Shown here piece after piece: positions 8,024 through 23,648 of a DNA stretch of 23,648 nucleotides (positions within the stretch are counted from its first letter, which is position 1; every line of letters starts with the position of its first letter). Origin of the DNA: a virus; IMG/VR virus record IMGVR_UViG_3300042344_000007, positions 1-23,648 of that record; one strand, written 5' to 3'. A model generated the notes under the pieces. The model searched no databases. It saw only the letters and a list, made by a program, of their open reading frames with translations, and was not told where the DNA came from. Both the position numbers and the translations under genes were made by a program.

Positions 8024-8028
8024 GATAT

Positions 8029-8033
8029 TCCTT
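8029..8033 (-). promoter_or_regulatory. AAGGA ribosome-binding site that sets the tailspike start
   Basis: AAGGA overlaps the TAA stop of the S74 fibre gene (TAAGGA) and lies five bases before the ATG at 8023. The longer in-frame extension to 8116 would place the start inside the fibre gene. Confidence 0.65.
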
Positions 8034-10158
8034 AAAGTGCGGCAATAATAAAGGCTAACAACTCGCTGTATCGCACACCTAAACGCGTTTGTGAAGAGCC
8101 GTCTGAGGTAGTCCATGTATCACTGCAAAACAAACCGTATTTTGACGCATCTAAGCCTTCTGCGGCAAATGCTTCTTGAACTTCTTGCGCGATAACACCA
8201 AAATGAATCCGCGCCTCATCACCTTTGGTCTCAACAGCGTCGTTCCACTTAAACGCCCGTATGAGTTTTTTGACTCGTTGGGCTGTGCGCTGCTCGGCGT
8301 CTGACAAATCTCTGATCTGCTGCTTTTGATTTGCGTCTGACGTATTGATCGTACCTGTGGTTGCGTAGACCACGGTGTATCTAAACAATCCCGTGCCTAG
8401 CGCGCGGACGTTATCGTTGGCGGGGCGCCAAGTATTACTATCCCCTACAAAAATTGATGAGCCAGGATAAGTAGCACCACTAGCCAACACAACACCGTTG
8501 GCGCCACCTAGAACAGCATACGCCCCGCTTTCACCAAGATAAGCGTTGCTAGAGGAAGAACCATTAGATGTAGCGTAAGTTGTAGCTAAAAACGTGTTTG
8601 TGTAGCTAGTAAAATTCTTTTGACCACTGATGGTTTGAGTGCCGGTTGTTGTGACGATACCCGCACCCGTGAGCGACGACGCGCCTGTGCCACCGTTAGC
8701 TACAGCAAGCGTGCCGCCAAGCGTCAACGTTCCCGATGTAGTGATGGGGCCGCCGGTAAGTGTTAAGCCTGTTGAGCCGCCGCTACCGTCAACGCTAGTT
8801 ACTGTTCCGTTGTTGGTGGCATTAATAGTAATGGAACCGGAGCCGTTAGAAATACTGACGCCGGTACCAGCCGTTAAAGTAGTGCGAGTAAAACCACTAC
8901 CATTACCAATATCAAGCTGCCCATTGCTTGGCGTGCTAGTTAAACCTGTACCACCATTAGCGACGTTTAACGTACCCCCAAGCGTAATCGTGCCAGACGA
9001 CGTAATAGGACCGCCAGACGTCGTTAATCCTGTCGTACCGCCTGAAACATCAACTGAACTTACGCCCGTAGACCCCGACGCGCTTATCGTGATTGATCCT
9101 GCGCCGTTCGATATAGAGATGTTAGAACCAGCAGTCAATGTGGCTAACGAATAGCCAGAACCGTTGCCAATCAACAGTTGACCATTAGACGGCGTTGATG
9201 TGACACCTGTACCACCATAACCGGTTGTTATGGTTGAGCCATTCCATGTGCCACTTGTAATTCTGTTACTTACTGATAAATCATACGTAGCTACATTACT
9301 CCAACGCCAAGATACGTTTCCACAACTATATGTGTTATCAATAAAAGGACGTATACCTGTTGTATCTACAACAAGACGGCCAAATCCTGGGTAAGTTGTC
9401 CCTGAACCTAGCACGACACCATTAACGCCAGCTACAACTCCATAAGCGCTGTTTTCACCAAAGTAAGCGTTAGAACTTGTACCGCCGTCTGACGTGGCAT
9501 AGGTGGTGCCAAGAAACGTGTTGGTATAGCTAGTAAAGTTCTTTTGACCGCTGATGGTCTGCGTGCCGGTCTTAGTTACGATGCCAGCGCCGTCTAGCGT
9601 TGTTGACCCCGTACCGCCGTTAGCTACAGCAAGCGTACCCGACATCGTGATGGTGCCGGAAGACGTGATAGGCCCACCTGTAAACGTCATGCCTGTCGTG
9701 CCGCCAGACACATCAACGCTAGTCACAGTGCCGCTAGACGTTGGTCCTGGTGGGATAATCGGCGGCGATAAATTAGCGTAGTTATCAACGAATATTTGCA
9801 TAGCCGCAGGCAGCAGCGCTTGGCTATCGTCGGCAGACGGCACAACAAAAGGCGGCGAAACTGCTTGGCTATCATCAAACGATTGTTGAGCAAACGGTGG
9901 CAGCAACGCTTGATTGTCTGCCACTGACATAGGTGTGACGGCAGGCGGCGCTAGATCAGTAGCGCTACCCGCTACTAATATGTTGATGTTTTGCGCGGGC
10001 GGTCCAACTTGAAGATCATCAAGACTCGTCTGGTTGTTGCCCTGCCCCACCAACGTAAACAGATTCAAAAAGAACCGATACCATTCGCGTGAGATAAGAC
10101 CCGTCTTTTCGTCAATAATATTGACGCGGGGTGCGGGTATGTTAGTGATGTTAAGCAT
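8032..10158 (-). CDS. Tail fibre with C-terminal S74 self-cleaving chaperone domain
   Basis: The 708-residue product has several zones. Residues 1-40 contain LISREWYRFFLNLFTL, a motif common at the virion end of phage fibres. About 79-138 has four Asp/Gln/Pro repeats. About 143-600 is a Gly/Ser/Thr beta-rich shaft with repeats such as GTVTSVDVSGG...LAVANGGTG. About 603-708 is an intramolecular chaperone (Peptidase S74). The expected self-cleavage pair is present: INTSDANQK places Ser607 five residues before Lys612, as in endosialidase, followed by FKW and IHFGVIAQEVQEAFAAEGLD. The chaperone would drive trimer folding and then be released. The gene overlaps the gp10-like gene by 8 bases and lies directly before the tailspike, so both attach to the same tail hub. 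Confidence 0.88.
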   Translation of the reverse strand: MLNITNIPAPRVNIIDEKTGLISREWYRFFLNLFTLVGQGNNQTSLDDLQVGPPAQNINILVAGSATDLAPPAVTPMSVADNQALLPPFAQQSFDDSQAVSPPFVVPSADDSQALLPAAMQIFVDNYANLSPPIIPPGPTSSGTVTSVDVSGGTTGMTFTGGPITSSGTITMSGTLAVANGGTGSTTLDGAGIVTKTGTQTISGQKNFTSYTNTFLGTTYATSDGGTSSNAYFGENSAYGVVAGVNGVVLGSGTTYPGFGRLVVDTTGIRPFIDNTYSCGNVSWRWSNVATYDLSVSNRITSGTWNGSTITTGYGGTGVTSTPSNGQLLIGNGSGYSLATLTAGSNISISNGAGSITISASGSTGVSSVDVSGGTTGLTTSGGPITSSGTITLGGTLNVANGGTGLTSTPSNGQLDIGNGSGFTRTTLTAGTGVSISNGSGSITINATNNGTVTSVDGSGGSTGLTLTGGPITTSGTLTLGGTLAVANGGTGASSLTGAGIVTTTGTQTISGQKNFTSYTNTFLATTYATSNGSSSSNAYLGESGAYAVLGGANGVVLASGATYPGSSIFVGDSNTWRPANDNVRALGTGLFRYTVVYATTGTINTSDANQKQQIRDLSDAEQRTAQRVKKLIRAFKWNDAVETKGDEARIHFGVIAQEVQEAFAAEGLDASKYGLFCSDTWTTSDGSSQTRLGVRYSELLAFIIAAL
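8461..8808 (-). repeat. Fibre shaft duplication, copy 2
   Basis: Residues 451-566 of the S74 fibre align without any gap to residues 143-258 (constant offset of 308 residues, 924 bases). Both run from GTVTSVD to TYPG and both contain TQTISGQKNFTSYTNTF. Confidence 0.85.
9385..9732 (-). repeat. Fibre shaft duplication, copy 1
   Basis: Partner of the copy at 8461-8808, same length and phase. A third, half-length copy of the first segment (SSVDVSGGTTGLTTSGGPIT ... NGGTG) lies between them at about 8944-9066. Confidence 0.85.
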
Positions 10159-11692
10159 TGGTCGGCGTTATGAGAAGTTCCGCGCCCATAATCGCTGTCT
10201 TTACAGGGTCGGTCATTGACAACTCATAGACCCTATCGCGCAACTTCATGGTCATCCCTAGACGCCTAAACCAAACGCGGTGGCCGTACTCACCAATTTT
10301 TCCAACCGAGGATGTACGGTAGTTAGACCATGTGTGACCGCCATCATCAGACCAACGTAGCATGACCTCAGGGTCAGCGCCTTGCGTGCCTGGAAGCTGT
10401 TGCTCTTCAATGAAGTAGTCACCTGTTTCTGTCACTAAATAGTTGCCGCCCGTTTCAGTGATGAAATAAACGTTCTCGGTGCGTGGATAGCCGTTTAAAC
10501 CAACGCCAGACTCAATGTCGATCTGCATCGAATACTGCGCGGTACGTTTGAGATTGTTTTGGCCGGTCGGCAACGCCCGCCACGAGCGCAGCCACTTTTG
10601 TATCTGACCGTTGTCAGCGTAGGTGTCAAGGTCGAACGCGTAAATATTGCCGTTTTGATAGTCGCCCACAATAATTTTATTGTTGAACGCCATCTGACAA
10701 TTGCTGCGGTGCCGCGTAAACGATCCGTTATTCCACCCCGCGCGCTCATGCCATGCGCCTGTCGCAACGTCATAGACCCAGGTTGTATTGGCGCTGGGGA
10801 AAATAAGCACGTAAAAGCTATGGCCGTCTTGCTGGTAGGTGTATGCAAGCGCGTCAGTAAGATTGCCGTACTGTTGAATTTGCCACTCAACCGCGTGGGT
10901 ACTGATGCGTTGGCCGGTGTAACCGTTAGCGCGGTAGACAATACCTTGGCCTCTAGCGTCAGCGCCCAACCAAAACAGACCGTTATCCATCTTAGCGATG
11001 GTGTACGCTGATATACAGCCAATCTCATTAAACGCGCCTTGGATGCGCTGTAACGGAAAATCAGGCGTACCAGCGTCGTACCAAACTTCAACGGTACTTG
11101 TGCCGTACACCCAAACTTCACGATGATCAACAATAAGGCCCACCACACCGTCAGGCGATCCTTCAGCGCTTGCAAAGTCAAGCGGATCAATAGACGTACC
11201 GTCAAGCAGTTGCGTAACCCAAATACGTTGGCTGTTAGGCTCATTAAAAACAAAGTAGCCGTCGATATAGCCAACCGTTACCGCACCAGGAAAATCAGGG
11301 TCTATGATCTGACCAAAGTCGCCGGTGTCAACGTTGTAGATGTAGCTAGGACCGTTGCAGGCAATGAATAACTGTATGCCGTTGTCAGCCATGCTGACAG
11401 GGCCAGTGCCAGGAATAGAGCCGATAAGCGTAGCGGCGTAGCTGGTGTTGATTCGGTACAGTTCGTTACCGGATACAACAAACGCGGTACTGTTATCAGA
11501 CGAAAATGTCCATAGCCCTCTGATGGGGCCGCTGCCGATCGTAGCAAGGTTTAATAGGCCAGGACAGCGCTGAAGAAACGCAGGTTCTTTGCCGCCTTCC
11601 GGCACTACCTCTGGAAATAAATTGACCATCCTCGCATCGGCTGCGTTGACGGAACGGGCAACGTAAGTCGAGCCAAGGATCGGCGTTTTCAT
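10151..11692 (-). CDS. Packaged-DNA stabilisation / tail hub protein, P22 gp10-like
   Basis: The 513-residue product is of P22 gp10 type (P22 gp10 is about 470). It starts MKTPILGSTYVARSVNAADA, followed by RMVNLFPE and EPAFLQRCPGL, the characteristic opening of the Phage_stabilise family. The body is a series of beta repeats with many Trp/Tyr/Gly positions, as expected for a propeller-like hub. An Asp-box-like SDDGGHTWS lies at 448-456. Residues 409-430 hold a curious nine-residue microrepeat around TETG. The ATG shares a base with the gp4-like stop (TAATG). In P22 this protein joins gp4 to plug the portal after packaging and holds the tailspikes. Gene order agrees with that role. Confidence 0.88.
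   Translation of the reverse strand: MKTPILGSTYVARSVNAADARMVNLFPEVVPEGGKEPAFLQRCPGLLNLATIGSGPIRGLWTFSSDNSTAFVVSGNELYRINTSYAATLIGSIPGTGPVSMADNGIQLFIACNGPSYIYNVDTGDFGQIIDPDFPGAVTVGYIDGYFVFNEPNSQRIWVTQLLDGTSIDPLDFASAEGSPDGVVGLIVDHREVWVYGTSTVEVWYDAGTPDFPLQRIQGAFNEIGCISAYTIAKMDNGLFWLGADARGQGIVYRANGYTGQRISTHAVEWQIQQYGNLTDALAYTYQQDGHSFYVLIFPSANTTWVYDVATGAWHERAGWNNGSFTRHRSNCQMAFNNKIIVGDYQNGNIYAFDLDTYADNGQIQKWLRSWRALPTGQNNLKRTAQYSMQIDIESGVGLNGYPRTENVYFITETGGNYLVTETGDYFIEEQQLPGTQGADPEVMLRWSDDGGHTWSNYRTSSVGKIGEYGHRVWFRRLGMTMKLRDRVYELSMTDPVKTAIMGAELLITPTNA
10403..10468 (-). repeat. TETG microrepeat inside the gp10-like protein
   Basis: Three successive strand units, YFITETGGN, YLVTETGDY and FIEE, repeat with a nine-residue period at residues 409-430. 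The DNA repeats with the same 27-base period. Confidence 0.75.
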
Positions 11693-12402
11693 TAGAAGTT
11701 ATTGGCGTAAATGTTGTACCGTTGACGCGTCGCAACAATTGGATAAGGTATCGCCATAAGATCGCCAGGAAAGTTAATGCGCTTGATGTTGCGCTTACTT
11801 GACATGGCAATACGCTGTACCTGCGGCGAAGGTTCTACACCAAACTCAGGCGCTAACTCGCACGCTAGGTTGTAGCGAAACGCGCGTAAATAGCCTGGTG
11901 GAAAGTACATGTCTGTAGCGACGCTTGACACTTCATTGAGCGTTTCTACCGAAATAATGTGCCACTCTAAGGCTTTAATAGGTACAGGGTAAATGGTCAT
12001 CTCAATATCAGGAAAGGTATTGTTGACCCATAAAACCTGCGGATAGGTGGACGTAACCGTTTTAAACGCGATGCCGTCGTACTGCTGCTGATTGATAAGT
12101 TTGACGCCAAACGACAACCCTGATGAAGGGTCTTTAAAATAAGTTGCGTCGTCAACTTCGATAGGACGATTGCCAACAAAATCACCAGTAGGCCCAAGCG
12201 TGCGGGACATGGTGTAAGCAGGCCATGTAAACACCTGATCTTGCGTGCTAAACACCGACAGGCGCTCGGTATCCCATGACTGAATCATTTGATTCATCGC
12301 CATGATGGAATCTTGCATCACAGCAACCGAGGGCTGTTCACCTTCGGCCAACACGCCAAGAAGTCTAAGCGACCCTTCAATCAATTCAGCGGCAGTTGTC
12401 AT
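11692..12402 (-). CDS. Tail accessory / head-completion protein, P22 gp4-like
   Basis: The 236-residue product starts MTTAAELIEGSLRLLGVLAE and has the family hallmarks: an N-terminal helical bundle with MAMNQMIQSWDTERLSVFS, then a beta region (FTWPAYTMSRTLGPTGDF and NRPIEVDDATYF), and a helical C-terminus (FPPGYLRAFRYNLACELAPE). It is somewhat longer than P22 gp4 (about 166), as in many environmental relatives. P22 gp4 binds the portal first after packaging and seats gp10. AGGAG lies eight bases upstream of the ATG, which overlaps the stop of the 62-residue gene by four bases (ATGA). Confidence 0.85.
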   Translation of the reverse strand: MTTAAELIEGSLRLLGVLAEGEQPSVAVMQDSIMAMNQMIQSWDTERLSVFSTQDQVFTWPAYTMSRTLGPTGDFVGNRPIEVDDATYFKDPSSGLSFGVKLINQQQYDGIAFKTVTSTYPQVLWVNNTFPDIEMTIYPVPIKALEWHIISVETLNEVSSVATDMYFPPGYLRAFRYNLACELAPEFGVEPSPQVQRIAMSSKRNIKRINFPGDLMAIPYPIVATRQRYNIYANNF

Positions 12403-12587
12403 GACTCAATCTCCTGAGGTCTGCGACTGCGACGACGTGGTTGAAGTTCGTTAACAGTCTCATGCTCATCCGTTACGGCATTAGGATCATACGCTTCCCA
12501 GCCATTTTGTCTGTCATGTTCAGCTTCCATGTCAGATATAGCAACTTTAGCACCATGCGTAGGGTGGCGAAGATAGATGACGGCCAT
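12399..12587 (-). CDS. Small 62-residue protein of the head-tail region, function unknown
   Basis: The product begins MAVIYLRHPTHGAKVAISDM and then EAEHDRQNGWEAYDP. The pattern 'LRHPxHGxKVAxS...E...NGWexy' is one I have seen in short phage proteins placed before the gp4-type gene. The C-terminal third is Arg/Glu-rich and probably disordered (RRRSRRPQE). The ATG has no recognisable ribosome-binding site (TTTAAAATT precedes it) and follows a GGGGG/CCCCC hairpin. It overlaps gp4 by four bases. A neck or head-tail accessory role is possible but not shown. Confidence 0.6.
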   Translation of the reverse strand: MAVIYLRHPTHGAKVAISDMEAEHDRQNGWEAYDPNAVTDEHETVNELQPRRRSRRPQEIES

Positions 12588-12597
12588 AATTTTAAAT

Positions 12598-12614
12598 GGG
12601 GGTAGTTAGCCCCC
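12598..12614 (-). terminator. GGGGG/CCCCC hairpin after the 136-residue gene (weak terminator or attenuator)
   Basis: A five-pair G:C stem with a seven-base loop, followed on the minus strand by ATTTAAAATT. It lies in the 33-base gap between two genes. It lacks a real T run, so partial attenuation or 3'-end protection is more likely than full termination. Confidence 0.45.
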
Positions 12615-12620
12615 GCGCCT

Positions 12621-13031
12621 TTACACGCAATGAATTACAGCAAAATTAATAACAACTGCTTCAGACAGCGAGCCGCCTGAGATGTTACGCACGGTAATTG
12701 ACGCAGAACCTGCGCTTATACCGGAAACCCAGCAGTTATACGCGCCAGCCGTAGCACCACCGCTTACGTTCAGAATCAAGATGTCGTTAGTAGAAATAAG
12801 CGAGTTGTTTAACGTAAAAGTTACGTTGGTTACGCTCGCCAAAGCTGCGTTATTCATCGTGATCTGACCGGCGGCTTTGTTAAGCGTTACAGCGGTCGAT
12901 TTGCTAGTAGCCTGAGTTACCGTACCTTGAGCGTTTGCTGTGTAACCAAACTGTTCATCAGACAATATGTACTGCGCGCCGATGATGTCTTGGTCAGTGA
13001 AAGCAACGCCGATTGGCTTAGTGTTTGACAT
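12621..13031 (-). CDS. Small beta-rich capsid-region protein, possible decoration protein
   Basis: The product has 136 residues. After an N-terminal segment (MSNTKPIGVAFTDQDIIGAQ) it is a beta-rich domain (about 35-136) with the pattern TNVTFTLNNSLISTNDILIL, SGGATAGAYNCWVSGISAGS, then SITVRNISGGSLSEAVVINF. This module recurs in phage structural proteins next to coat genes. AAGGA precedes the ATG. It lies between two hairpins, downstream of coat. It may be a capsid decoration or head-fibre subunit; position and fold type are the only grounds. Confidence 0.6.
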   Translation of the reverse strand: MSNTKPIGVAFTDQDIIGAQYILSDEQFGYTANAQGTVTQATSKSTAVTLNKAAGQITMNNAALASVTNVTFTLNNSLISTNDILILNVSGGATAGAYNCWVSGISAGSASITVRNISGGSLSEAVVINFAVIHCV

Positions 13032-13048
13032 AGCTAATCCTTTTAAAA

Positions 13049-13068
13049 ATAGGGGGCGAACCCCCTAT
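13049..13068 (-). terminator. Rho-independent-type hairpin with UUCG loop after the 131-residue gene
   Basis: ATAGGGGG and CCCCCTAT form a perfect eight-pair stem. The loop on the transcribed minus strand is TTCG, and TTTT follows directly. It lies two bases after the upstream stop codon. The next gene's AAGGA is just downstream, so it is likely a partial terminator or RNA-processing/stability element within the late operon. Confidence 0.65.
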
Positions 13069-13071
13069 CGA

Positions 13072-13467
13072 TTACGCAATCCGATAAGCCGTCCAAGTGC
13101 CAACGCCGGTCTTGCGAGCCAGCCATTGCGACGATGTACCTGCCGATACCGCAGCCGTGCCAACAAGCGTCCAGCCCGTGCCTGCCGTTACGGTTACTGC
13201 ATCTGTACTGTCGATGTTAACCACCGCAAACGTAAACGCTGCGTTGACCTTAGCTGCCGAAGAAATTTCAGCTTCAAGCAACGCAACCGTAGGCAGCGTC
13301 ATTGCGCCAGCAGTGCCGTCAAACGTAAACAGACCGTTTGCCAATTCAGCCGCTGTGATTGTAGCTGCGCCAGTAAGCGCGGTAGGAGCACCTTGAACAA
13401 ACAACAAAGCCTCGCCGGTATTACCGTCGTTGTACTGATAGCCACCAGCACCGTTAGGAATTGCCAT
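13072..13467 (-). CDS. Small beta-rich capsid-region protein, possible decoration protein
   Basis: The 131-residue product starts MAIPNGAGGYQYNDGNTGEA. The ATG at 13467 has AAGGA six bases upstream and is preferred to an in-frame start five codons earlier, which would include that site. The C-terminal about 85 residues follow a common phage module: FTFDGTAGAMTLPT, then VNIDSTDAVTVTAGTGWTLV, GTSSQWLARKTG and the ending WTAYRIA. It lies directly after the coat gene, bounded by two hairpins. A decoration or head-fibre role is likely from position; no enzymatic motif is present. Confidence 0.6.
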   Translation of the reverse strand: MAIPNGAGGYQYNDGNTGEALLFVQGAPTALTGAATITAAELANGLFTFDGTAGAMTLPTVALLEAEISSAAKVNAAFTFAVVNIDSTDAVTVTAGTGWTLVGTAAVSAGTSSQWLARKTGVGTWTAYRIA

Positions 13468-13473
13468 GATAAA

Positions 13474-13478
13474 TCCTT
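13474..13478 (-). promoter_or_regulatory. AAGGA ribosome-binding site that sets the start at 13467
   Basis: AAGGA lies six bases before the ATG at 13467, and the alternative upstream start at 13482 would place this site inside the coding sequence. Confidence 0.55.
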
Positions 13479-13496
13479 TCAAAAAATAATTCGGTA

Positions 13497-13514
13497 AGGG
13501 GGCCGAAGCCCCCT
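13497..13514 (-). terminator. GC-rich hairpin with C(UUCG)G loop after the coat gene
   Basis: AGGGGGC and GCCCCCT form a seven-pair stem. On the transcribed strand the loop is C(UUCG)G, the classic extra-stable tetraloop. A T-rich stretch (ATTATTTTTT) begins about seven bases after the stem. It lies seven bases after the coat stop codon. Likely a leaky terminator or a 3' stabilising structure that raises coat mRNA relative to downstream genes. Confidence 0.6.
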
Positions 13515-13521
13515 AGATTAA

Positions 13522-14730
13522 TTAACCCCAGAGACGAACAGCCATTTGCGGACGAATCACGCTGTAGCCGTACAGCACGTCAATACGGCAGGGCATACGG
13601 TCATTGTTGATGTCGTACTGACGAACAATACGCATCGAGATGCCGTTATGAACCTGACGCGATGCCATGTCAACGCCTTGCGGCATCATCAAATCGGCAG
13701 TAGCGAACGTGATGGCGTCTTTGTGGTAGACGAGGTTTTGTGGGTACTGCGACGAAGCAGCGCCGACAAACACGACAGCTTTGCTGGTGGCTGGAAGGCT
13801 AGCCACGGTTGCAAGCGCGTTGCTGGCCGAGTACATCGGAGCAACCGTCAAATTACCTGCGCCAGAACCGTTAAGCGTCACATCAACCGTTACAACGAAC
13901 TGGAACAGCGAACCAGTTGATTCACGGGTCTGTGGGTTAACAGCGTAGCAGTCAGCCACGGTGAACACGTCGCCAGCCTTAACCGTTGCGTTAGCGCCTG
14001 CGCCAGTGATGGCGATGGTGGTTGCGCCTTCGCTGGTAACAGCCGCAGAAGTCGTGCCGCCGGTAGCCGTACGCGAGCCGGTCGTAAACTGCTTAATCGA
14101 CTGAGACATATTGATCTCATCAAACCCAAGCACGCCGACGCCCATCATGCCGTTCTTGAACTGACGGCTGATCGTGTCGGTGGGGTTGAAAAGACCTTTC
14201 ATGCCTTCAACCAAACCAGCGTTAGCAGCGGGGTTGACTGTGGCGTAACGGGGCGACATAACAGCAGCGTTCTCGTTCAGTTTCTGTTGAGCTTGCAACA
14301 GAACCAACGACGTGCCAGGTGTCGTGCCAGGCGTACCAACTGTGTTACCGATGTTCTGGTAAGAGTTAGCAACGTCTGCATCGATGCTAGCGGCAAGCTG
14401 GCTAATACGAGGCTTGAGCACGCGCTCTGCGAAGTCATCCAACTGCAAGGTCAATTCAGCAGAGGTGAAGTTAACGCCGATGTGCTTTTGCGAAGCCACG
14501 GTCAACGTGGTGTACTGCTCGTTGTCGCTTTGAACTTGGAGTGCTGCACCGTCGGTTACAAGTGCGCGGTCCGGTAAGCGGATACGCAAGGTCGAACCAA
14601 TTTTGGCGCCTTCAACAGCAAAGCTATCGTCGTACTGACGGTTAACGTTGCGGGTTAAGACAAGATTATTCTCAAGGATTTCAAGCGCCTTGCGAGTAAT
14701 CATGTCGATGGTAAGTAGACTATTTGCCAT
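13522..14730 (-). CDS. Major capsid (coat) protein, P22 gp5-like
   Basis: The 402-residue product (P22 coat is 430) is of the HK97-fold P22 coat family. The N-terminal arm reads MANSLLTIDMITRKALEILE, then NLVLTRNVNRQYDDSFAVEG and KIGSTLRIRLP, a pattern typical of this family. LTVASQKHIGVNFTSAEL and the helix DFAERVLKPRISQLAASIDA match its spine region. A Thr/Ala/Gly-rich beta stretch in the middle (about 220-300, SRTATGGTTSAAVTS onwards) sits where P22 coat has its inserted I-domain. The C-terminus reads RIDVLYGYSVIRPQMAVRLWG. AAGGA lies six bases before the ATG. It follows the scaffold gene by 20 bases, as in P22. Confidence 0.9.
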   Translation of the reverse strand: MANSLLTIDMITRKALEILENNLVLTRNVNRQYDDSFAVEGAKIGSTLRIRLPDRALVTDGAALQVQSDNEQYTTLTVASQKHIGVNFTSAELTLQLDDFAERVLKPRISQLAASIDADVANSYQNIGNTVGTPGTTPGTSLVLLQAQQKLNENAAVMSPRYATVNPAANAGLVEGMKGLFNPTDTISRQFKNGMMGVGVLGFDEINMSQSIKQFTTGSRTATGGTTSAAVTSEGATTIAITGAGANATVKAGDVFTVADCYAVNPQTRESTGSLFQFVVTVDVTLNGSGAGNLTVAPMYSASNALATVASLPATSKAVVFVGAASSQYPQNLVYHKDAITFATADLMMPQGVDMASRQVHNGISMRIVRQYDINNDRMPCRIDVLYGYSVIRPQMAVRLWG

Positions 14731-14750
14731 GACAATTCCTTATCAAAAAG

Positions 14751-15542
14751 TTAGCGGACTCGGTTTTGAGCTTCCCATTTCTTAATCTGCCGTTGACGCT
14801 CGGCTTCAATCCACTCTGACGTTGACATTTCCTTAATCGAACGCGGGTCAGTCGTGTCTAAAACTCTTGCGTTGCCACCCCGAGGAGTGACAGGCTGAAT
14901 CGGCGCGGGAGCGCTCGTTGATTTCTTAACAGGAGGATTTTCGCTCAACTTCGCTTCAATCTTCCCAATTTCTTTGGCCTGCAAAAAAGGCGACAACTTG
15001 GCAATACGATCGGCTTCTTTCGGATTAGAACCAAGGTAGTAAGCCACCTCGGGGCCAACATCAGACGCTTGAATCGTTTCAGCCATCACTGACGTAATTG
15101 GAAGACGAGGGTTGTACGCGACCTGTTCAAAATCTTCGTACTTAGTTCGTGCTTCTTCTTCGCGCTCGTGATAGACCTCAAGAATTTCGGCTCGCTGTCT
15201 TTCTGCATCCCGTCGAGCAAGTAGTTCAGCAGCTTTTCGTTCGGTTAACGCTTCCGCGTATTCCTCAGTCGAAGCAAAACTATCTTGCGCTGGTAATTCA
15301 CTAGACAGCATTTCAGGCGTTGAAGCCCTCAGCTTTTGTTCCCGTTCCCACTTGCGTTGCTCTCTTGCAAGTCGTTTGCTGATCATCGCGTCAAGTTCAG
15401 CCTGGGTAAATCGCTTTTCCTCAGTCTGCTCTGGCGCTTGTTCAGCGACCTCCGGCGCATTTTGTGCAATTTCCGTGGTGGCCGTCACCTCGGTTGCTGG
15501 CGCGGATTCAACTTCCGCTAAGTTTTGACTTTCGTCGCTCAT
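14751..15542 (-). CDS. Scaffolding protein
   Basis: The 263-residue product is acidic and disordered at the N-terminus (about 1-40, Glu/Ala/Thr/Pro). It then has KRFTQAELDAMISKRLAREQ and RKWEREQ, a motif seen in many phage scaffolds, a long charged coiled coil (about 85-145), a Pro/Ser linker, and a basic C-terminal helix (EWIEAERQRQIKKWEAQNR) like the coat-binding end of P22 gp8. It lies directly upstream of coat. It would direct procapsid assembly and exit before or during packaging. The start follows a weak GAGTG site after a 64-base gap. P22 gp8 is 303 residues. Confidence 0.85.
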   Translation of the reverse strand: MSDESQNLAEVESAPATEVTATTEIAQNAPEVAEQAPEQTEEKRFTQAELDAMISKRLAREQRKWEREQKLRASTPEMLSSELPAQDSFASTEEYAEALTERKAAELLARRDAERQRAEILEVYHEREEEARTKYEDFEQVAYNPRLPITSVMAETIQASDVGPEVAYYLGSNPKEADRIAKLSPFLQAKEIGKIEAKLSENPPVKKSTSAPAPIQPVTPRGGNARVLDTTDPRSIKEMSTSEWIEAERQRQIKKWEAQNRVR

Positions 15543-15606
15543 GATTCACTCGTTAGAGTCTCGGTCTACTGGGCCGATACAGTTAAAACATCATATATTA
15601 CGGGGC
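15543..15606. other. Longest intergenic gap (64 bases), upstream of scaffold
   Basis: This is the longest gene-free stretch in the window. It separates the fibre cassette from the scaffold-coat block and holds an AT-rich GTAATATATGATG element on the minus strand but no convincing -35/-10 pair. A short TCGG/CCGA inverted repeat is present and weak. Confidence 0.35.
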
Positions 15607-15936
15607 TTACTGTGGCAATACAAGTTGCGATGTTGTTAGGTTGGCTACCTGTGAAGAGCTAAAAAAGGTTATGTCGATGGTCGTTAAAGGCTGAATAGGC
15701 TCTACAACCTCCACAGTCCCCCACGATCCTTCTACCCAGCTTCGTGTATCGTGCTGCCAATTCCACTGGTAGCCTGCTCTGTCTGCTGGCTTAGGGTCAC
15801 GGATAATCCATTCCCAGTTTAGCCAAACAAGTTCCTTGCCTTCAGGAATCTCTGTAGGAGGTGATGGAGCCTGTTGCCAGCCCTCTGTGCCGTCTGTCTC
15901 TTGTGATGGGATAGACCCGTTCTTAGTCCAGTACAT
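15607..15936 (-). CDS. Small protein after the LamG fibre, possible fibre-associated or assembly factor
   Basis: The 109-residue product starts MYWTKNGSIPSQETDGTEGW with AAGGA five bases upstream. It is rich in Trp and Pro: VWLNWEWIIRDPKPADRAGY, then WNWQHDTRSWVEGSW, a pattern seen in small phage proteins encoded after tail fibres. It ends in a hydrophobic TFFSSSQVANLTTSQLVLPQ. It lies nine bases downstream of the LamG fibre gene and upstream of scaffold. A fibre chaperone is one guess from position; family not recognised. Confidence 0.5.
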   Translation of the reverse strand: MYWTKNGSIPSQETDGTEGWQQAPSPPTEIPEGKELVWLNWEWIIRDPKPADRAGYQWNWQHDTRSWVEGSWGTVEVVEPIQPLTTIDITFFSSSQVANLTTSQLVLPQ

Positions 15937-15945
15937 ATCTATCCT

Positions 15946-18168
15946 TTATAACGTTGGAAACGCTGCTGTTGGAGAGGCAGTAATGGTTCTTGCGTAGCGA
16001 GTAATGCGGACATCTTGTATATAGCCGTTTAATACATCTGTATTACTATAATTGGAGCCAATTCTATATACGCATCCCGTATAGCTATTTGTATCAGAAG
16101 CGGATGAACCCGTTTGGGAACCATTAAGATATAACCTTGACGTACCAGAACTACGAACAAGGGCTATGTAATACCACGTTGATGTTGATAAAGATGAGCC
16201 AGTAATAAGCGCAGCCCCGCCAACCGAATAACTTAATGCGCCACCAGCAGGAAAATAAATAATAGGATACGTTCCACTCCCTGGGCGTAAATCAACAATA
16301 TTCGCCTGACTTGCCGTTGAATTTACATATAACCAAAACTCAATTGTAAAGTCGCCTGTGCCAAAATCGCATACGGGCGATGTTCGTGCAAATAAAGAAT
16401 CCCCCGTCCCATCAAACGCCATACAGCCACTGCCCCACTTAGCAGAGATCGCCGTACTGATCTTCGCACCGTCCACCGTCTCCAGATCATTCTTGCTAGT
16501 AGCATCGTAAATACCAGCGTTAGTGTAGTTTAGGAGGAGGGAGGTGTTGGTGATGTTGGTGAGAGGTGCTGTAGGAGGTGTGAAAGCTGCGGTGTATACA
16601 GCAGTGCCTTTGACTACACGGACATCGCTTATGTAACCCGGCCAAAACTGATTAGATGCAAATGAATCTTGTCCGATATATGTTGTGTTGTTACCAAAAC
16701 TTGTTGTTTGCGTTGATGAGCCAGCAACATTTCCATTTAAGAAAAATTTAACTGCATTGCTTTGTCTGGATAAAGCAATATGAGTCCACGTATTAGCGGT
16801 TAGACTAACACCTGTAAACCAATTTGTCGTACCGCTTACCGCAACATTGATTGTTGACCCATTAGTATAAAACGCAATACCAGTGCCACCTCCTCTGCTA
16901 TCAAATGGAACATAAACACTTGATAATGTAGTCGGATATATCCAAAACTCAATATTAAAATCTCCTGTCCCAAAAGCCACGGCAGAAGATGTTGGAACCG
17001 TCAAATAATCCCCACTCCCATCGAAATACCCTGACCCACCATTAGTCGCAGCAGACCACGATGCAGTGGGGTTGAATGGAGAGAAGGCTTGTACGGAGGG
17101 GGAGCCGGAGGTGTTTAACCCGATTGCATTACTACTAATATCTCTAAAACGATTTGAATTTGCAATCAAAAAAGAGGTGTTTGTAACCGCTGTTAGGGTT
17201 GAAGTCGGTATCGTAATCGTTGATCCTGAATATAACGATGTACCTTTAACCACACGGAAATTTGATAGGTAGCCTTTGAGTCCATAAGTATTGTTGTAGA
17301 CCGTACCAATAACGCAGTACGTCATCGTGTAATTGGTTGTATCAGTTATAGCACTTAAACCAGCTACTATGGAACCATTCCAGTAGACAGAAGTAACTCC
17401 AGACGTTCTTACAATTGCAAAATGCCGCCACTGACCAATATCAGCGGAAGTTACCAATACATTAGTCGAGGCTAAAGCAGAATTAGCAGCATAAATTTCT
17501 AGTTTACCAGTTGATCCTATATAAAAGGCTGTTGTGTTTGAAGTTGATTGGTTGTAACCTGTAGATGCGGTAGACATCTGAAAGATCATATTGTCATTTA
17601 TACTATTTAGGTTTACAAAACCTTCAATAGTAAAGTCTCCAACATTGCTTGCACCGCCAGTGCCAAATGAAAACGCACTGTTGGAAGTTGCAGTAGTTAA
17701 ACGATCTGATGTGGTTCCTAAATAATTCCCCCACCCCGTCTGCGAGAACGGTGAGAAAGTGCCTTGTGTCGTATTGCCGTTACGGGTGATTGGGAAACCG
17801 TTAGAGGTAATCGTTGTGCTAGCAACAGTCTGTGATTGATTGACTGTATAAGTACCTGTGCCGCCTGTACCAGTGCCTAATGCTGTGATCGTTGTCTGAG
17901 GCGAAGCTGTAATGCCACTGCCGCTAATCCACTGACCAACCTTGATAGTTCCAGACGCAACCGCAGTAACCGTAAGCGTTGTGCCTGAAATAGAACCAGT
18001 GAACTCAGCAGGATTGCCAGAGTCTAAGAACGTGTTGTTTTGTGCGCCGTTGGTTCCGTTGCCTGGGAGTAATAGCGTGGTGTATTCGTAGTAAGGATCA
18101 GACGTTACTGGAGGTGCAGCGCTCCCAGAGAACGCCGCAGCAATCATCGCCGTTAAGTTACCAGCCAT
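15946..18168 (-). CDS. Large fibre-like protein with three LamG / concanavalin A-like domains
   Basis: The 740-residue product starts [20 protein letters not shown]. The ATG at 18168 has AGGAG seven bases upstream and shares a base with the previous stop, so a start further upstream at 18222 is rejected. Three LamG-type (jelly-roll lectin) domains are visible by repeated markers GTGDF(T/N)IEFW, W..(I)ALVR.S......LNG and GYI.D(V)R(V/I)..: about residues 165-310, 385-525 and 585-730. They are joined by linkers such as [20 protein letters not shown]. The first linker (about 53-122) carries an inserted beta module ([20 protein letters not shown]). LamG domains bind glycans, so a receptor or surface-binding role is likely. 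No collagen repeat, enzyme motif or chaperone is seen. Confidence 0.8.
17803..18012 (-). repeat. Inserted beta module in the first LamG linker
   Basis: About 70 residues (53-122) of the type [20 protein letters not shown]...[18 protein letters not shown] separate [20 protein letters not shown] from [20 protein letters not shown]. In related LamG fibres I recall those two parts as continuous. It is a single-copy module here, labelled repeat only because it recurs in other phage fibres. Confidence 0.5.
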
Positions 18169-19256
18169 TAGGTCACTCCTGCACCAGAGACATACCACGT
18201 ATCCGTAGCCGTTTTCAGACAAGTCGCTAAACCTTTAGTCGCCACTGTCCTGTTACCTGTAGCACCGTTAGCTAACTGAAAGGTAACACCAGCACCAGAA
18301 ATCGTAAGGTTGCCTGAATTGTCATTCACCACGAGAATCGTTGTTCCAATGGGAAACGCTACAGACGAATTAGTTGGCACAGTCAGCGTAGCCGTAGACC
18401 CGCCTGTAAAGATAACGTGCTTGCCTGAGTCTGTAAGCACTAACGTATAAGCGGAAGCGCCTCCAGAAGTCTGTGGTGCAGTCCTAAAGCCTACTGTATT
18501 AGTACCGTCTACCGTACAGTTACTTAGGGTTCCTGATGTAGGTGTACCCAGCACAGGTGTTACAAGCGTTGGTGATGTGGCAAAAACTAACGAGCCTGAG
18601 CCTGTCTCATCAGTCACCGCTGCCGCTAGGTTAGATGATGATGGTGTGGCTAGGAAGGTAGCTACATTAGAACCTAGACCCGATACACCTGTACTTACTG
18701 GTAAGCCTGTACAGTTTGTAAGCGTTCCTGAACTAGGAGTTCCTAAAGCACCATTTAAAGGTACTGCACCGATGGTGTTGTAACTAATAGTTCTTGCCGA
18801 AGAGCCATTGTAGGTTGTGCCAGAGGCATCTCCTGCACCACCATTATTCATGGTCAGCGCGTTAGCTACCGTAGCAGTCGATGTAGTCTTAAGATTACCG
18901 GCTGAATCAAACGTACCGTCAGTTGTCCATGTGTCGTTAACCGCTAACGTAACTTTTGCAATCTGACGGGATGTCGAACCGCTAGAGTTGGCATAAGCAA
19001 TCGTGACCGTAACGGGGGCCGTGTCTTTATTTTGGATCGTGATCCACTTAATGACGCGTCTTGTTGATGCCCCAGGTGCAGAAACGATTGTTACTAGCGA
19101 AGTGCCGTTTAATGCTCCATCACCTGCACCTTCAGTCAAACTTGACGAAGTGCTATCGGCATAAGCGACCGTATATTCAGGGTTGTTGGTAGCCGCAGCA
19201 CCAGACATCACCGCAGTGATTGTCTTTGTCGTTGCGTCAAGAACTAAAGTTGACAT
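18168..19256 (-). CDS. Tail-fibre-like structural protein
   Basis: The 362-residue product starts [20 protein letters not shown] with AAGGA upstream. Residues 60-115 form a beta domain ([20 protein letters not shown], then [13 protein letters not shown]) like that of small virion proteins. The middle (about 130-250) has fibre repeats ([59 protein letters not shown]) shared with the next fibre upstream. Residues 275-362 form a C-terminal beta domain ([20 protein letters not shown], then [18 protein letters not shown]). A receptor-binding or fibre-shaft role is likely. It is coupled to the LamG gene by a one-base overlap. Confidence 0.7.
18176..18180 (-). promoter_or_regulatory. AGGAG ribosome-binding site that sets the LamG fibre start
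   Basis: AGGAG lies seven bases before the ATG at 18168, inside the last codons of the upstream fibre gene. Confidence 0.6.
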
Positions 19257-19265
19257 TTTTGATCC

Positions 19266-21047
19266 TTATGACAAAAACCAAGCAAAGTTTTGCGCAGTGC
19301 TACTACCCCCACCACCACCGCCAGAAATCGTTACTGTTACGTCGTTGCCTACTGCTGTAGCTGTTACACCTGAACCTACAAAGTTAAAGCTCGAAACCGC
19401 AGCGGTAATTTGAGAGCCTTCATCAGATACTGCAATACTGGCTGATGCAGAAGGTGTAGCCCACGTCCCATCGCCTCTCCAGAACGTCGAAGACGATGCG
19501 CCTGTTCCTGAGTTTAGGTTCGTAACCGGAAGGTTGCCGATAACGCCCCCTGCTAAAGGAAGCCCCGTGGCGTTGGTAAGAGTTAAGGTAGTAGGTGTAC
19601 CTAAATTGGGTGTTACTAGTGTGGGGGATGTGGCTAAAACATTGTTACCTGAACCCGTATTGGTAACACTAACAACATTTTTACTTGCATCTAAAGCAAG
19701 CGCTGTACTAGCCGTTAAACCAGAAAAAGTAGTTGTAGAGGACGCTGAAAGTGTCGTGAAAGCGCCAGTTGTCGGTGTGGTCGCACCTACCGTACCATTA
19801 ATATTGATTGATGCTGTACCAGTAAGGTTTGTTACCGTACCGCTTGATGGTGTACCTAAAGCACCACCATTAACGACAAATGCACCAGAAGAACCTGTGT
19901 TAACACCAAGTGCTGTAACAACACCTGTGCCTGTCGTAAGGTTTGTAAAGCCACCTGAGCCGTTACTTGCAAGCAACTGGTTTGCAGAACCCGTTGTAGC
20001 GGCTGCGTAATCTGTTCCTGCCGTAGCCGCAGCAATAACACCGGACGAGGCTTTTAACAATCCAGTTGTAGTGGCTGCTTTAATCAGCTTGCCTGTTGTG
20101 CTGTCAAACAAAGCAATCTGGCTATCGACCGCGCTTGATGGGCCAACAACATCACCAGAACCAGACGGTGTACTCCACACAAAAGCAGTACCATTCCATT
20201 TAAGGAAGGTGTCTGTAACCGTTGGTGCGGTAACAAAAGATGTTGTGCTTGAGCCGGTTTGATATACAAGCCTATTTGTGCCGCCACCAGAAATGGCAGC
20301 CGCTATACCGGCTGCACCAGTAATATCAATACCCCATGTGCCTGTCGCATTAGCACCTGTTATTGATGGTGAGCCAATGGTGTTGTAACTAATGGTCTGT
20401 GCAACGGAGCCATCAAAAACAGTACCTGACGCTGCACCAGAACCTGAATTGTTCATGGTTAGAGGGTATGTTGTCGTACCCCCGCCGCCACCACCACCGC
20501 CAGCAGCCCAAACAAAAGCAGCCCCATCCCATTGCAGATAGGTTGATGCGGTAGTAGGAGCCGTAACAAACGATGTGGTACTAGCACCTGTCTGATAAGC
20601 AATTCTATTAGCCGCGCCGCCCGCTAAATTAGTGCTAGTTGTAGCCGTTGTTGCTGTCGTAGCGGTCGTTGCCGTTGTTGCTGTCGTAGCACTTGTTGCT
20701 GTCGTAGCTGTTGTTGCGGTCGTAGCACTTGTTGCTGTTGCTGCGTTACCTTTAATACTTATGTCCCATGTACCAGAAGCATTAGTCCCTGTAATACTAG
20801 GCGCACCGATGGTGTTGTAGCTTATAGTCCTCGCTACCGACCCATTAAATGTAGTTCCGGAAGCTGCACCGGACCCTGAATTGTCAAATGTAGCGGCATA
20901 CGTAGTTGTGCCGCCGCCACCACCTGCTAAAGCTGCAATACTGCCAGCGGTAACCTTGTAGTTAGCGCCGCTGCGAGCAATAGGTATTTCATCGCCAGAT
21001 TGCGCTGGATTACCGCTGGTTAACCCTGAAATCTTGACGTCTGCCAT
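19266..21047 (-). CDS. Repetitive Gly/Ala/Thr tail-fibre-like protein
   Basis: The 593-residue product starts [20 protein letters not shown], an N-terminus common to phage fibres, with GGAG seven bases upstream. Residues 46-181 and 191-292 are two copies of one block (TTTY.., [15 protein letters not shown], TISYNTIG, then [15 protein letters not shown]). Copy 1 carries an extra Ala-Thr-Thr tract. Poly-Gly runs (42-46, 183-190, near the C-terminus) act as hinges. About 340-560 has fibre repeats ([44 protein letters not shown]). The ending is QNFAWFLS. No enzyme or chaperone domain is seen. It is probably a fibre or fibre-base subunit of the receptor-binding cassette. Confidence 0.75.
20172..20477 (-). 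repeat. Fibre block duplication, copy 2 (without the Ala-Thr-Thr tract)
   Basis: Residues 191-292, running from [14 protein letters not shown] to TAFVWS, are aligned with copy 1 at 20505-20912. Confidence 0.8.
20505..20912 (-). repeat. Fibre block duplication, copy 1 (with the Ala-Thr-Thr tract)
   Basis: Residues 46-181, running from [14 protein letters not shown] to AAFVWA. It is about 34 residues longer than copy 2, almost exactly the length of the Ala-Thr-Thr tract. Confidence 0.8.
20634..20744 (-). repeat. Ala-Thr-Thr/Ser microrepeat tract
   Basis: Twelve near-perfect nine-base units (of the type GCXACXACX) encode (Ala-Thr-Thr/Ser)n at residues 102-138 of the fibre. The third positions vary, so the tract is kept at protein level as well as expanded by slippage. 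Confidence 0.85.
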
Positions 21048-21081
21048 GGTTACTCCAACTTAAGACAAAAAGCTCAAGTGT

Positions 21082-21390
21082 CTATTCTTTGTTAATCGGC
21101 TTACAGTACGCAATACCGCTTGTTGACCCAATACGCAACACGCTGACACGCCAAGGAGCGCCTGAAGTGTTCAAAGGCACGACGAAATGGAAGGGGGTAT
21201 TAGCAGGAATGGGTGTACTAGCCGTCGTAGCTGTCGCATCCACACCAACCTCAACATAAGAAGCTACATCTGCCCATACAAGAACACCTTGTGGGCCTGC
21301 GCCCCAAGCAGTTGTATTGCCTGCGGTAGCCCCAGAGGTCGCTGTGTACGCGGGGTAATCCGTCTTACTCATCGGGTTAAGAAGTTGCAT
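21082..21390 (-). CDS. Small beta-rich structural protein, function unknown
   Basis: The 102-residue product starts MQLLNPMSKTDYPAYTATSG with AAGGA seven bases upstream. The core reads GAGPQGVLVWADVASYVEVG, then ATTASTPIPANTPFHFVVPL and WRVSVLRIGSTSG, a small beta-sandwich pattern that recurs in phage genes near portal or tail genes. It lies between the Dps-like gene and the fibre cassette. It could be a decoration or a fibre-attachment subunit. No motif decides this. Confidence 0.55.
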   Translation of the reverse strand: MQLLNPMSKTDYPAYTATSGATAGNTTAWGAGPQGVLVWADVASYVEVGVDATATTASTPIPANTPFHFVVPLNTSGAPWRVSVLRIGSTSGIAYCKPINKE

Positions 21391-21399: not shown

Positions 21400-21762
21400 T
21401 TATGCGAGAAACTTAAGTTTGTAGATTGTACTTAAGTACAACCCGATAATTTCATCAATGATGTTTTGAAGCGGTGTTTCAGCCTTATCACAGACTTCAT
21501 ACCTAATTTTTTCGATCTGATCAACCTGATCTTGCATGAAAGCTAAAATATTAGAGGTTTTACCGGCACTCATCAATGATATGGGGCCGATCAAACCATG
21601 TCTACCTTGGTAGGCTTCAGCAAATTTGTCCGCTAGATCGATAACTTCGTCGTAAAACTTACCTAATGCTTTGTGTTTGCTGTAACTACGGGTGTTTAGA
21701 TGGACAGAATGGGCAACATCACGGGCTAAAAACAACATACCTACAAAATCAGCGCATTTCAT
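21400..21762 (-). CDS. Small all-helical protein with a Dps/ferritin-like metal-site pattern (DUF5856-like)
   Basis: The 120-residue product starts MKCADFVGMLFLARDVAHSV, then HLNTRSYSKHKALGKFYDEV and IDLADKFAEAYQG. It is predicted all-helical. I recall similar small proteins (AH..HL.T.SY..H.ALG.FY) in many phages, grouped as DUF5856. Counting residues, His30, Tyr37, Glu39, Asp45 and Glu49 keep the spacing of the second half of the Dps ferroxidase site (H, Y+7, E+9, D+15, AE+19), and His18 or His21 could supply the other ligand. A ferritin-like role is inference. The start overlaps the portal stop by four bases (ATGA), so the two are co-translated. No signal peptide or membrane segment is present. 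Confidence 0.65.
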   Translation of the reverse strand: MKCADFVGMLFLARDVAHSVHLNTRSYSKHKALGKFYDEVIDLADKFAEAYQGRHGLIGPISLMSAGKTSNILAFMQDQVDQIEKIRYEVCDKAETPLQNIIDEIIGLYLSTIYKLKFLA

Positions 21763-23648
21763 GCTTGGCCCTCCTGCGGTACGACGTTAGGCATGGGCCT
21801 AGCTTGTTGAGCCTCTTCCTGACGGGCCATAATACCTTCTTCACGGCCCATCTCATCTGATTCCGGCATGATTGGACCTTGCATTTGCTGAGGTGGCACT
21901 AAATCACCAGCATCGTGCGCCGCAGCAATCGTACCCATCACAATATCTTGAATTTGCTCCATCGTCATGCCAGGCATTGTGGCTGAAATACGCTTAGTTT
22001 CGGCGTCAAATGCCTTGATTTTAGCCTCAAACTCACGTACTTGAACGTCTCTAGCCTCAATTGACTGATTGACGTTCATAAGCATATCGTGCATTTGTTG
22101 CATTTCAGCGCCCATGGCTTCAATTTGCTTCTGAGCAGCCTGTAGCGCAGGATCGTTGTCTTGATCAGCAAGCAATTGCGGGTCAATCGTCTTACGAAGA
22201 CGTGCGGCCATCTCTTGAGCACCAGGCCAATCCATGTTCTTAACAAACAAGTCGCCTGCAACAGCCCATAAATTGGGGTTGCCTTGCAAGATTTGCGCCA
22301 TAGCGTCCATAGCTTCTTGGCGCTTGGTCATGTAGCTTGGGCCTGTGGTCACCACAACATCGTAGCGGCCAACTGAGGGGTTGTAAATCTTATCGATTAC
22401 CACGCCTGTTTGATCCATGATCTTTTTGACCGGCTCTTGCTGCGTGGGGTCGATCTTGACCATGTTGGTTTCGCCATCAATACCAACAATCCGAGCAATC
22501 CGTTGCGTGTCGTAGATTTTTGGTATCAAATCAACCAATTGACGGGTTACATACCGCACGGCACGGGCTAAATTGTCTACATAGTGGTACGTACCGTTAT
22601 CAGACTCTTTTTGCCTTGCCAAAATAGCACGGCCAGAACGCTCATTAGACACTTGACCAAGGCTTGCGTCGTACTGGCCGGTTGTTGATTTGATGTCTTC
22701 TGACGCGCCCATCTTGGCTTGAATAAGCCCTGTTTGCGGCAGTGGTGGTGCTGCACGCTGTGGCAGCGGCAGTATGGACCCCGCACCGTCGGTAACGTCA
22801 GGGTTGACCTCAAGGTAAGGCCAATTTTGCGTATTAGCGGTCTTCCACTGGTACTCATACCCCTCAAACTGACCACCGTAACCAATAAATGGTGCTTTAG
22901 GCGCAAGCGCTAACATCTCAGCTTCTTGGCTGGTCCAGTAGTTGTACATGCGCTGGGCGTCTTTAGCGTTACGGACAATCCCTGAGATGAAAATACGTCC
23001 GTCAACCTGAAATTCGTTGCCCACAACCCGTACAACCGGAATCCAATTACCTGCCCATTCGCGTTCTTCAAGCACTTCAAAGCCATTGGTTTTCATCCAC
23101 ATGACTTTTTTGCGGTCTACACGACGCTCGCGTATAGGCGTAAGCCCCATATCCCTCAGTTGCTGGTCTTCCGTGGAGCCTTTAAACACGGATTGATTAC
23201 CTGGGTAGAGGTACAACGTGTCTTGTTTATGCGCAATATAGAAGTATTCAGCGATACGGATCGTATCTTCCGTGATCCACTGGCTTATGTCTTGATCACC
23301 AATACCTTGCGCCATGATCGAAGACAGCGGTGCAGCGTTGGGGTACATACGCTGGTAGTCTTCCTTGAGCATGTCTTCCGTAATAAAACACCACTCAGCG
23401 TCTGCGCCGCATGGGTCTTGGATTAGCGGGTCCATGTAAACACTGAAACTATTGCGTACGCGCGCGATCTTAATGTCTTGATCGAAGCTATCTTCGTAGC
23501 AATACTCGGTTAAAATGCGTATATAGCCTTCACCGTAGGTTACTTGGTTCTCGCACGCGGTGTCGTACGCTACGTCAGCGTCTGACATGTACTCAATATG
23601 TCGCACGATGCCGTCGAGCACCTCTGCGACCTCGACGTCGGCTTGATC
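21759..23648 (-). CDS. Portal protein, P22 gp1-like (5' end beyond the window)
   Basis: The frame stays open to the right edge, giving 629 residues of the C-terminal part; P22 portal has 725, so about 100 N-terminal residues are missing. Markers of the P22 portal family include YDTACENQVTYGEGYIRILT, EWCFITEDMLKEDYQRMYPN, the wing-type beta region with GNWIPVVRVVGNEF, then ISGIVRNAKDAQRMYNYWTS and DIKSTTGQYDASLGQVSNER. A long Gln/Met-rich helix (about residues 500-590) corresponds to the barrel/coiled-coil region. The tail is Pro/Gln-rich. The portal forms the dodecameric DNA channel and the site where terminase and later gp4 dock. The terminase genes should lie immediately beyond the right edge. 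Confidence 0.9.
   Translation of the reverse strand, partial: DQADVEVAEVLDGIVRHIEYMSDADVAYDTACENQVTYGEGYIRILTEYCYEDSFDQDIKIARVRNSFSVYMDPLIQDPCGADAEWCFITEDMLKEDYQRMYPNAAPLSSIMAQGIGDQDISQWITEDTIRIAEYFYIAHKQDTLYLYPGNQSVFKGSTEDQQLRDMGLTPIRERRVDRKKVMWMKTNGFEVLEEREWAGNWIPVVRVVGNEFQVDGRIFISGIVRNAKDAQRMYNYWTSQEAEMLALAPKAPFIGYGGQFEGYEYQWKTANTQNWPYLEVNPDVTDGAGSILPLPQRAAPPLPQTGLIQAKMGASEDIKSTTGQYDASLGQVSNERSGRAILARQKESDNGTYHYVDNLARAVRYVTRQLVDLIPKIYDTQRIARIVGIDGETNMVKIDPTQQEPVKKIMDQTGVVIDKIYNPSVGRYDVVVTTGPSYMTKRQEAMDAMAQILQGNPNLWAVAGDLFVKNMDWPGAQEMAARLRKTIDPQLLADQDNDPALQAAQKQIEAMGAEMQQMHDMLMNVNQSIEARDVQVREFEAKIKAFDAETKRISATMPGMTMEQIQDIVMGTIAAAHDAGDLVPPQQMQGPIMPESDEMGREEGIMARQEEAQQARPMPNVVPQEGQA

Follow-up and report, generated by a model that had tools for sequence, protein, structure and literature searches.

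A variable slot of probable receptor-binding genes in the head gene block of a P22-like podovirus

The host-range genes of tailed phages are usually sought beside the tail genes. The virus record IMGVR_UViG_3300042344_000007, which consists of 23,648 bases alone (the window, analysed here at its full length), raises the question of why fibre-type genes stand among head genes, and which part of the virion they serve. The window covers the structural genes of a P22-like podovirus, on the minus strand, from a cut portal gene to ejection-type and lysis-type genes, with the P22-type portal, scaffold and coat all present. The original prediction placed fibre-type genes between the portal group and the scaffold. 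Five genes do lie there, at 15607-21390 on the minus strand, and a cassette of receptor-binding type inside the head gene block is supported. This cassette is probably what now fills a hypervariable host-recognition slot, fixed between a DUF5856 gene and the scaffold gene. The locus would be a modular receptor-binding locus of known type in an unusual place. The slot and its flanking genes are:

21759-23621, minus strand: portal of P22 type (Pfam P22_portal, E-value (E) 2.3e-145, from profile position 85; the N-terminus is lost at the window end)
21400-21762, minus strand: DUF5856 gene, the 5' neighbour of the slot (Pfam, E 8.8e-23)
21082-21390, minus strand: g102, a small slot gene of family a102, predicted to encode a beta protein
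19266-21047, minus strand: Gly/Ala/Thr fibre of 593 amino acids (aa), with an N-terminal KIS domain at 20898-21047
18168-19256, minus strand: fibre-type protein of 362 aa (open reading frame, ORF)
15946-18168, minus strand: LamG protein, 740 aa from the ATG at 18168, with three LamG lectin-like domains and a TAATG start
15607-15936, minus strand: g109, a small protein 3' of the LamG gene (ORF)
14751-15542, minus strand: scaffold, the 3' neighbour of the slot (phrog_8865, E 2.4e-30)

The portal does not directly precede the scaffold, as the DUF5856 gene and 5.8 kb lie between them. The cassette adjoins the portal group, as proposed, but the DUF5856 gene separates it from the portal itself. The DUF5856 gene belongs to PHROG 858, named starvation-inducible transcriptional regulator. 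The LamG gene begins at TTG 18222 in the ORF list, and the ATG at 18168 gives the 740-aa product. The Pfam P22 scaffold model scores below its cut-off on the window scaffold, whose identity comes from PHROG. Start codons in the cassette lie near the preceding stops (gaps of 9, 34 and 9 nucleotides (nt), a TAATG overlap, and 9 nt), and the predicted coupling of starts on one strand holds inside the cassette but not at the scaffold, which lies 64 nt further on, behind a promoter-like site and a structured leader. A shift in composition at about 15600 and 21400 was suggested as a check, and there is no clear step at either edge (GC content 0.46-0.50 around both); GC drops to 0.42-0.44 inside the AT-rich LamG gene.

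Relatives were gathered by scans with coat, portal, g102, scaffold, gp10 and gp4, keeping at most 80 loci per scan, and four named phages were added. At least about 600 stretches matched in five of the six scans. Early counts refer to 121 distinct slots (149 loci); the set later grew to 138, or 137 without Rhodoferax P26218. The slot is the interval from DUF5856 to scaffold, measured from the portal in Rhodoferax and L296. DUF5856 forms the left flank in 136 of the 138 slots. Slot length ranges from 325 to 8034 nt in the 137 slots. Most (126) have at least 933 nt, and 11 have fewer than 400 nt and are free of fibres. These 11 minimal slots hold a gene of the small family b88, and those inspected have no other same-strand ORF of at least 40 aa. 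Relatives lacking the cassette therefore exist, as the original prediction suggested looking for, and two more distant ones, PBR31 and P26218, go directly from portal to scaffold (77 nt in P26218, which has no DUF5856 match). PAE2 has one 333-nt ORF between portal and scaffold, and in Vibrio 1.183.O the portal is followed directly by a gene in the scaffold position that is annotated only as coiled-coil. Genes of 2OG-Fe(II) oxygenase type occur in 11 of the 121 slots (for example L163, L175 and L090), near a 121-aa family.

The contents of the slot change far faster than its flanks. Among 309 slot pairs with scaffolds at least 90% identical, a median of 1% of the longer slot aligns (at 85% identity or more), and less than half of it aligns in 292 pairs. 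Near relatives of the window show where the exchanges occur. L083 and L086 are 97.5% and 95.1% identical to it from the window end to about 17720, match patchily in the LamG gene after that, and are fully identical again from 15972. L171 follows the same pattern up to 15618 and then continues for at least 2.5 kb without a scaffold, which makes its slot longer. Beyond about 20766, just past the KIS domain, L084 and L167 match only in scattered repeats until identity returns at 15620; L302, L137 and L175 regain it there too. The breakpoints thus lie some 94 aa from the start of the 593-aa fibre, some 150 aa from that of the LamG protein, and at the slot end (15618-15620). By these alignments the LamG protein has a conserved N-terminus and a replaced C-terminal part. 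In phage PhiGT1, tail fibre N-termini are described as seldom replaced, presumably because they are bound to the tail hub (PMC10386132). Conserved N-termini with exchanged tips would fit the pattern of receptor-binding proteins. The comparison of relatives shows a fixed site with hypervariable contents, exchanged wholesale or behind conserved N-terminal domains.

Whether the slot serves the head or the tail can be judged from the anchors it carries. Clustering of N-termini finds one type common to the slots and to the tail blocks, the gp10-gp7 regions. The ORF set for this clustering lacks the window tailspike, owing to an overlap of about 85 nt; profile searches from stop to stop include it. 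The profile of this domain matches PDB 7eeq, a solved tailspike head-binding domain (E 6.5e-16), and the tail spike chains of 9vyg and 9vyh (E 1e-11 to 1e-13). The tail genes and coat of the window are:

13522-14730, minus strand: coat of P22 type (Pfam P22_CoatProtein, E 1.7e-37)
8032-10158, minus strand: tail-block fibre with a C-terminal S74 chaperone (Pfam Peptidase_S74, E 9.3e-12)
6158-8026, minus strand: tailspike with a pectate-lyase-like part (Pfam Pect-lyase, E 2.1e-11) and the head-binding domain at 7733-8023

Tail and ejection genes of gp4, gp10 and gp7 type are also present (phrog_637, E 5.1e-9; phrog_578, E 4.3e-130; phrog_598, E 1.4e-43). The N-terminal cluster of the S74 fibre contains 51 tail-block ORFs and no slot ORF.

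The head-binding domain is found in 84 of 138 slots and 35 of 124 tail blocks. Among the 44 distinct genomes in which both blocks are visible, 23 have it in the slot only, 18 in the tail block only, three in neither and none in both. A search of whole records finds exactly one domain in each of 43 of 43 (the 44 minus Rhodoferax), so L015 and L299 carry it outside slot and tail block. In L299 it comes right after the gp16-type match, and in L015 about 1.8 kb past it. The L015 record has 53,613 bases, compared with 37.6-38.8 kb in two complete named relatives, and may be a provirus or an assembly artefact. The only match in the window is in the gp10-gp7 tail block (profile A4, E 5.1e-42), and a profile search of the window finds no such domain in the cassette proteins. 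On a tree of coat, gp4 and scaffold, the slot or tail position requires 8 changes on the best tree; counting supported branches only, 6 are needed with the tail label and 8 with the slot label. The window, with its domain in the tail block, groups with L376, L380 and L377, which have it in the slot (100% in the Shimodaira-Hasegawa-like approximate likelihood ratio test); with L376 the window has 90% of coat, gp4 and scaffold residues in common. Since the anchor lies in the tail block of the window and in the slot of its near kin, it is simplest to suppose that the slot serves the tail. These comparisons favour cassette proteins that would be bound to the tail over proteins bound to the head.

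The 593-aa fibre starts with the KIS domain, which appears to stay in the slot: the strict KIS profile matches 102 of 138 slots and none of the 124 tail blocks. A first KIS profile that matched tail blocks was discarded, its seeds having been over-merged with pectate-lyase-like starts. KIS accompanies the spike anchor in 81 of its 84 slots, compared with 21 of the 54 slots that have no such anchor. The profile matches PDB 7qoj, the tail fibre gp22 of crAss001, weakly (E 2e-4, 31 residues aligned, residues 25-55 of gp22). Residues 1-26 of gp22 are reported to lie in the tail hub, and 7QOJ is among the depositions of that study (PMC10172136). The phage is distant and the 31 residues come just after the docked stretch, and the match points weakly to a possible tail attachment of the KIS fibres.

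The other cassette proteins are less widely shared. The N-terminus of the 362-aa protein is common to 8 of 121 slots. The LamG protein matches Pfam Laminin_G_3 in three stretches (E 1.3e-48, 165.4 bits against a curated cut-off of 27.6), and it matches proteins in 365 phage records, mostly of cyanophages. Its PHROG and phage matches include proteins named as virion structural or baseplate wedge proteins as well as hypothetical ones. A PDB sequence search with g102, the 593-aa fibre and the LamG protein gave nothing useful. The g109 family occurs in 5 of 121 slots and has no accepted match in Pfam or NCBIfam; at a guess, g109 is possibly a fibre accessory.

The first slot gene, g102, belongs to one of three families of 88-105 aa, exactly one of which (E < 1e-10) is found in 136 of 138 slots: a102 in 82 (including g102), c101 in 29 and b88 in 25. 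The exceptions are Rhodoferax and L416; in the latter a different ORF of about 113 aa has a similar look by eye. One scan used g102 as query, which partly biases these counts, and the 106 slots not found only by that scan give a102 51, c101 29, b88 25 and none 1. No slot has two families below E 1e-10; at E 1e-3, 13 of 121 slots have a weak second match when composition is not corrected for. Family identity changes at least 18 times on the tree. Sequence does not establish a common origin of the three families, profile comparisons giving probabilities of 0.1-0.3%. The start of the small gene is no more than 20 nt from DUF5856 in 90 of the 100 slots with a102 or b88 and in 1 of 21 with c101. 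The c101 gene is usually followed by one for a coiled-coil-like protein of about 165 aa.

AlphaFold predicts compact beta proteins for a102 and b88, with a mean predicted local distance difference test score of 85.7 each (predicted template modelling score 0.77 for a102). For g102 there is no PDB match at E 0.001, and the best structure match is PirA with Z 7.2, where Z below 8 may mean only a common arrangement. Matches of the models include 3j4u_H from a Bordetella phage (Z 5.6) and the HFTV1 turret (Z 5.4 and 6.2), among many unrelated proteins. Overall the a102 and b88 structure matches are middling and mixed, none of them is diagnostic, and the listed BFVD matches have no function. Papers on Dec of phage L and other cement proteins (PMC6449081, PMC9698820), in the portions available, leave the role of g102 undecided. 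Since minimal slots keep b88 without fibres, the small protein likely has a role of its own. As a guess, it might be a virion component in its own right, perhaps one that decorates the capsid.

The original prediction also suggested that the fibres could be bound to the head. This would make them capsid-binding fibres or decorations, produced beside scaffold and coat and perhaps held by g102 as an adaptor. Their position within the head block fits this, as do the tight spacing of the small gene to DUF5856 and the resemblance of the a102 and b88 models to small virion beta proteins. Head fibres are real in crAss001 (PMC10172136). The window cassette proteins also have no anchor of proven location, and g102 could be a head protein. 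However, the sole slot anchor of known placement that was found is the tailspike head-binding domain, and the persistence of b88 in fibre-free slots argues that the small protein is not merely a fibre holder. Attachment to the head is therefore disfavoured and seems unlikely.

It is still less probable that the cassette genes are accessory morons, that is, enzymes or lectins acting in the infected cell and absent from the virion. The oxygenase-type genes of some slots would suit such a function, but conserved N-termini with replaced C-termini, together with the head-binding domain in most slots, fit receptor binding, and some of the LamG matches carry virion names. The remaining explanation, that the cassette is an ordinary fixed core of this clade and looks inserted only beside P22, has very little probability. 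It can draw on the 126 filled slots, which show that the order is stable while the genes inside vary; the contents are almost wholly different among close relatives, 11 slots lack fibres, and P26218 and PBR31 have none of it. A stable core order, which the original prediction would have counted against an insertion, thus holds for the site alone and is refuted for the genes. On the whole that interpretation is partly supported, and the exchangeable host-recognition slot is the preferred reading.

A slot of this kind interrupts the head genes, and the sequence between it and the scaffold suggests how these could be kept in expression:

15590-15618, minus strand: sigma-70-like promoter candidate TTGCCA-17-TATGAT upstream of the scaffold
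15561-15584, minus strand: putative RNA pseudoknot of the scaffold leader, from covariation
15548-15559, minus strand: putative hairpin just 5' of the scaffold start, with covarying pairs (for example UA 35, AU 22 and CG 10 at one pair)

Upstream of the scaffold, 53 of 137 slots have a sigma-70-like site, compared with 9.9% of letter shuffles, and the leader is common to most slots. It was aligned by sequence only, using 84 leaders thinned from 135; L153 and L402 were left out, having no clear scaffold start, and the rows of L163, L398, L400 and L417, misaligned by eye, were kept. In the 84 leaders, 80.8% of the cells of pseudoknot and hairpin are paired, against 68.8% when shuffled and at most 50.4% when slid. 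Covariation of the whole structure is 0.398 (0.199 shuffled, at most 0.130 slid), and that of the pseudoknot helix alone 0.291 (0.137 shuffled). A nested-stem model finds 40 of the 43 clade sources, missing L163, L398 and L400. All 40 matches end at the scaffold start, 27 of them from the training set. The model adds one weak place (L040, E 0.27) and finds none of six more distant loci. Rfam has no match at gathering score in the window, and none at E up to 10 in 15400-15800. Scaffold and coat of the window phage may be expressible independently of the slot. The scaffold of P22 regulates its own synthesis.

Taken together, the fibre, LamG and spike proteins would be mounted on the short tail and act on host surface polysaccharide by binding or cutting it. 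The window phage would keep its anchored tailspike in the tail block and use the slot for KIS-type and LamG fibres. Recombination could swap the slot without harm to head assembly, because scaffold and coat would start from their own promoter and structured leader. A wider reading of all these results is tentative and has less than an even chance of being right. In it each genome would have exactly one tailspike anchor, with its gene moving again and again between at least three sites (the portal-scaffold slot, the gp10-gp7 block and past gp16), and the KIS-anchored fibre family would stay in the slot. The dedicated promoter and the new pseudoknot leader, a translational operator for the scaffold, would insulate the slot so that whole cassettes can be exchanged inside the head operon. 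The three small beta-protein families would be interchangeable, and the one that nearly every phage has would be a hidden obligate capsid or neck part.

Several results weigh against these proposals. The slot of the window has no head-binding domain, so for its three fibres a place on the tail is inferred from relatives and the weak 31-residue KIS match. The place of the anchor is clustered on the tree (10 'slot' changes against 15.0 when shuffled; 3 of 500 shuffles go as low), and the 44 genomes therefore do not count as independent. A pair test corrected for the tree gives a borderline result (8 pairs, never the same way, with a median p of 0.0625). Most records are fragments, and 'exactly one' holds for the recovered sequence. 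The region of the window has 8 promoter-like sites against 12.6 expected, so the promoter candidate is not significant alone. Two of the five measures for the leader structure stay close to the shuffles: 13 double-change pairs against 11.1 (71 of 500), and 28 pair types against 28.4 (345 of 500). RNAalifold predicts no pairs on the leader alignment; this may be because pseudoknots are not modelled and the stems are short, and the pseudoknot was judged on direct pair counts.

This podovirus group is plentiful in the viral contig collection, as the scans indicate. Many of its host-range genes appear to be encoded among the head genes, where annotation and host prediction could overlook them or assign them to the wrong place. 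With the one-anchor pattern, the tailspike of such genomes would be simple to find. Scaffold output has long been studied in P22 assembly, and the covarying leader gives a testable lead on how it is set.

P22-like podoviruses share with the window the P22-type portal, scaffold and coat, followed by gp4-, gp10- and gp7-type genes, and a tailspike with a head-binding domain. They differ in the variable fibre slot, which here lies between portal and scaffold and in most relatives encodes the tailspike anchor. Cyanophage Pam1 is likewise short-tailed with a spike, and the best PDB match of the head-binding domain, 7eeq, is presumably from this phage; 7eel is titled Pam1. The annotated Pam1 proteins are portal, scaffolding, capsid, cement, adaptor, needle head, spike and needle, but the available part of that paper names no slot after the portal (PMC9382816). 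An RNA pseudoknot also precedes gene 32 of T4, where it forms the 5' operator (PMC535899), although gene, sequence and layout differ from the scaffold leader.

A search of titles and abstract openings in the open-licence literature on this gene arrangement found no published description of the slot. DSL-LC05 (OR003940) and ctNMl277 (MW202483) have a slot in the same place, between portal/DUF5856 and scaffold, but with different contents, which in DSL-LC05 include genes annotated as tailspike and pectate lyase. This phage was assembled from a metagenome, and the accompanying paper puts forward a family Luchaoviridae (PMC10611076), a name found in no other paper of the open-licence literature. 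The available portion of that text does not contain 'tailspike' and has 'portal' once, in a list. In a distant relative, L433 (MW202674, at 6570-8085 and 9295-16280), genes annotated as tail fibre and baseplate-wedge type lie between the coat gene and the stabilization-protein gene, and the coat gene is annotated as two pieces around a small ORF.

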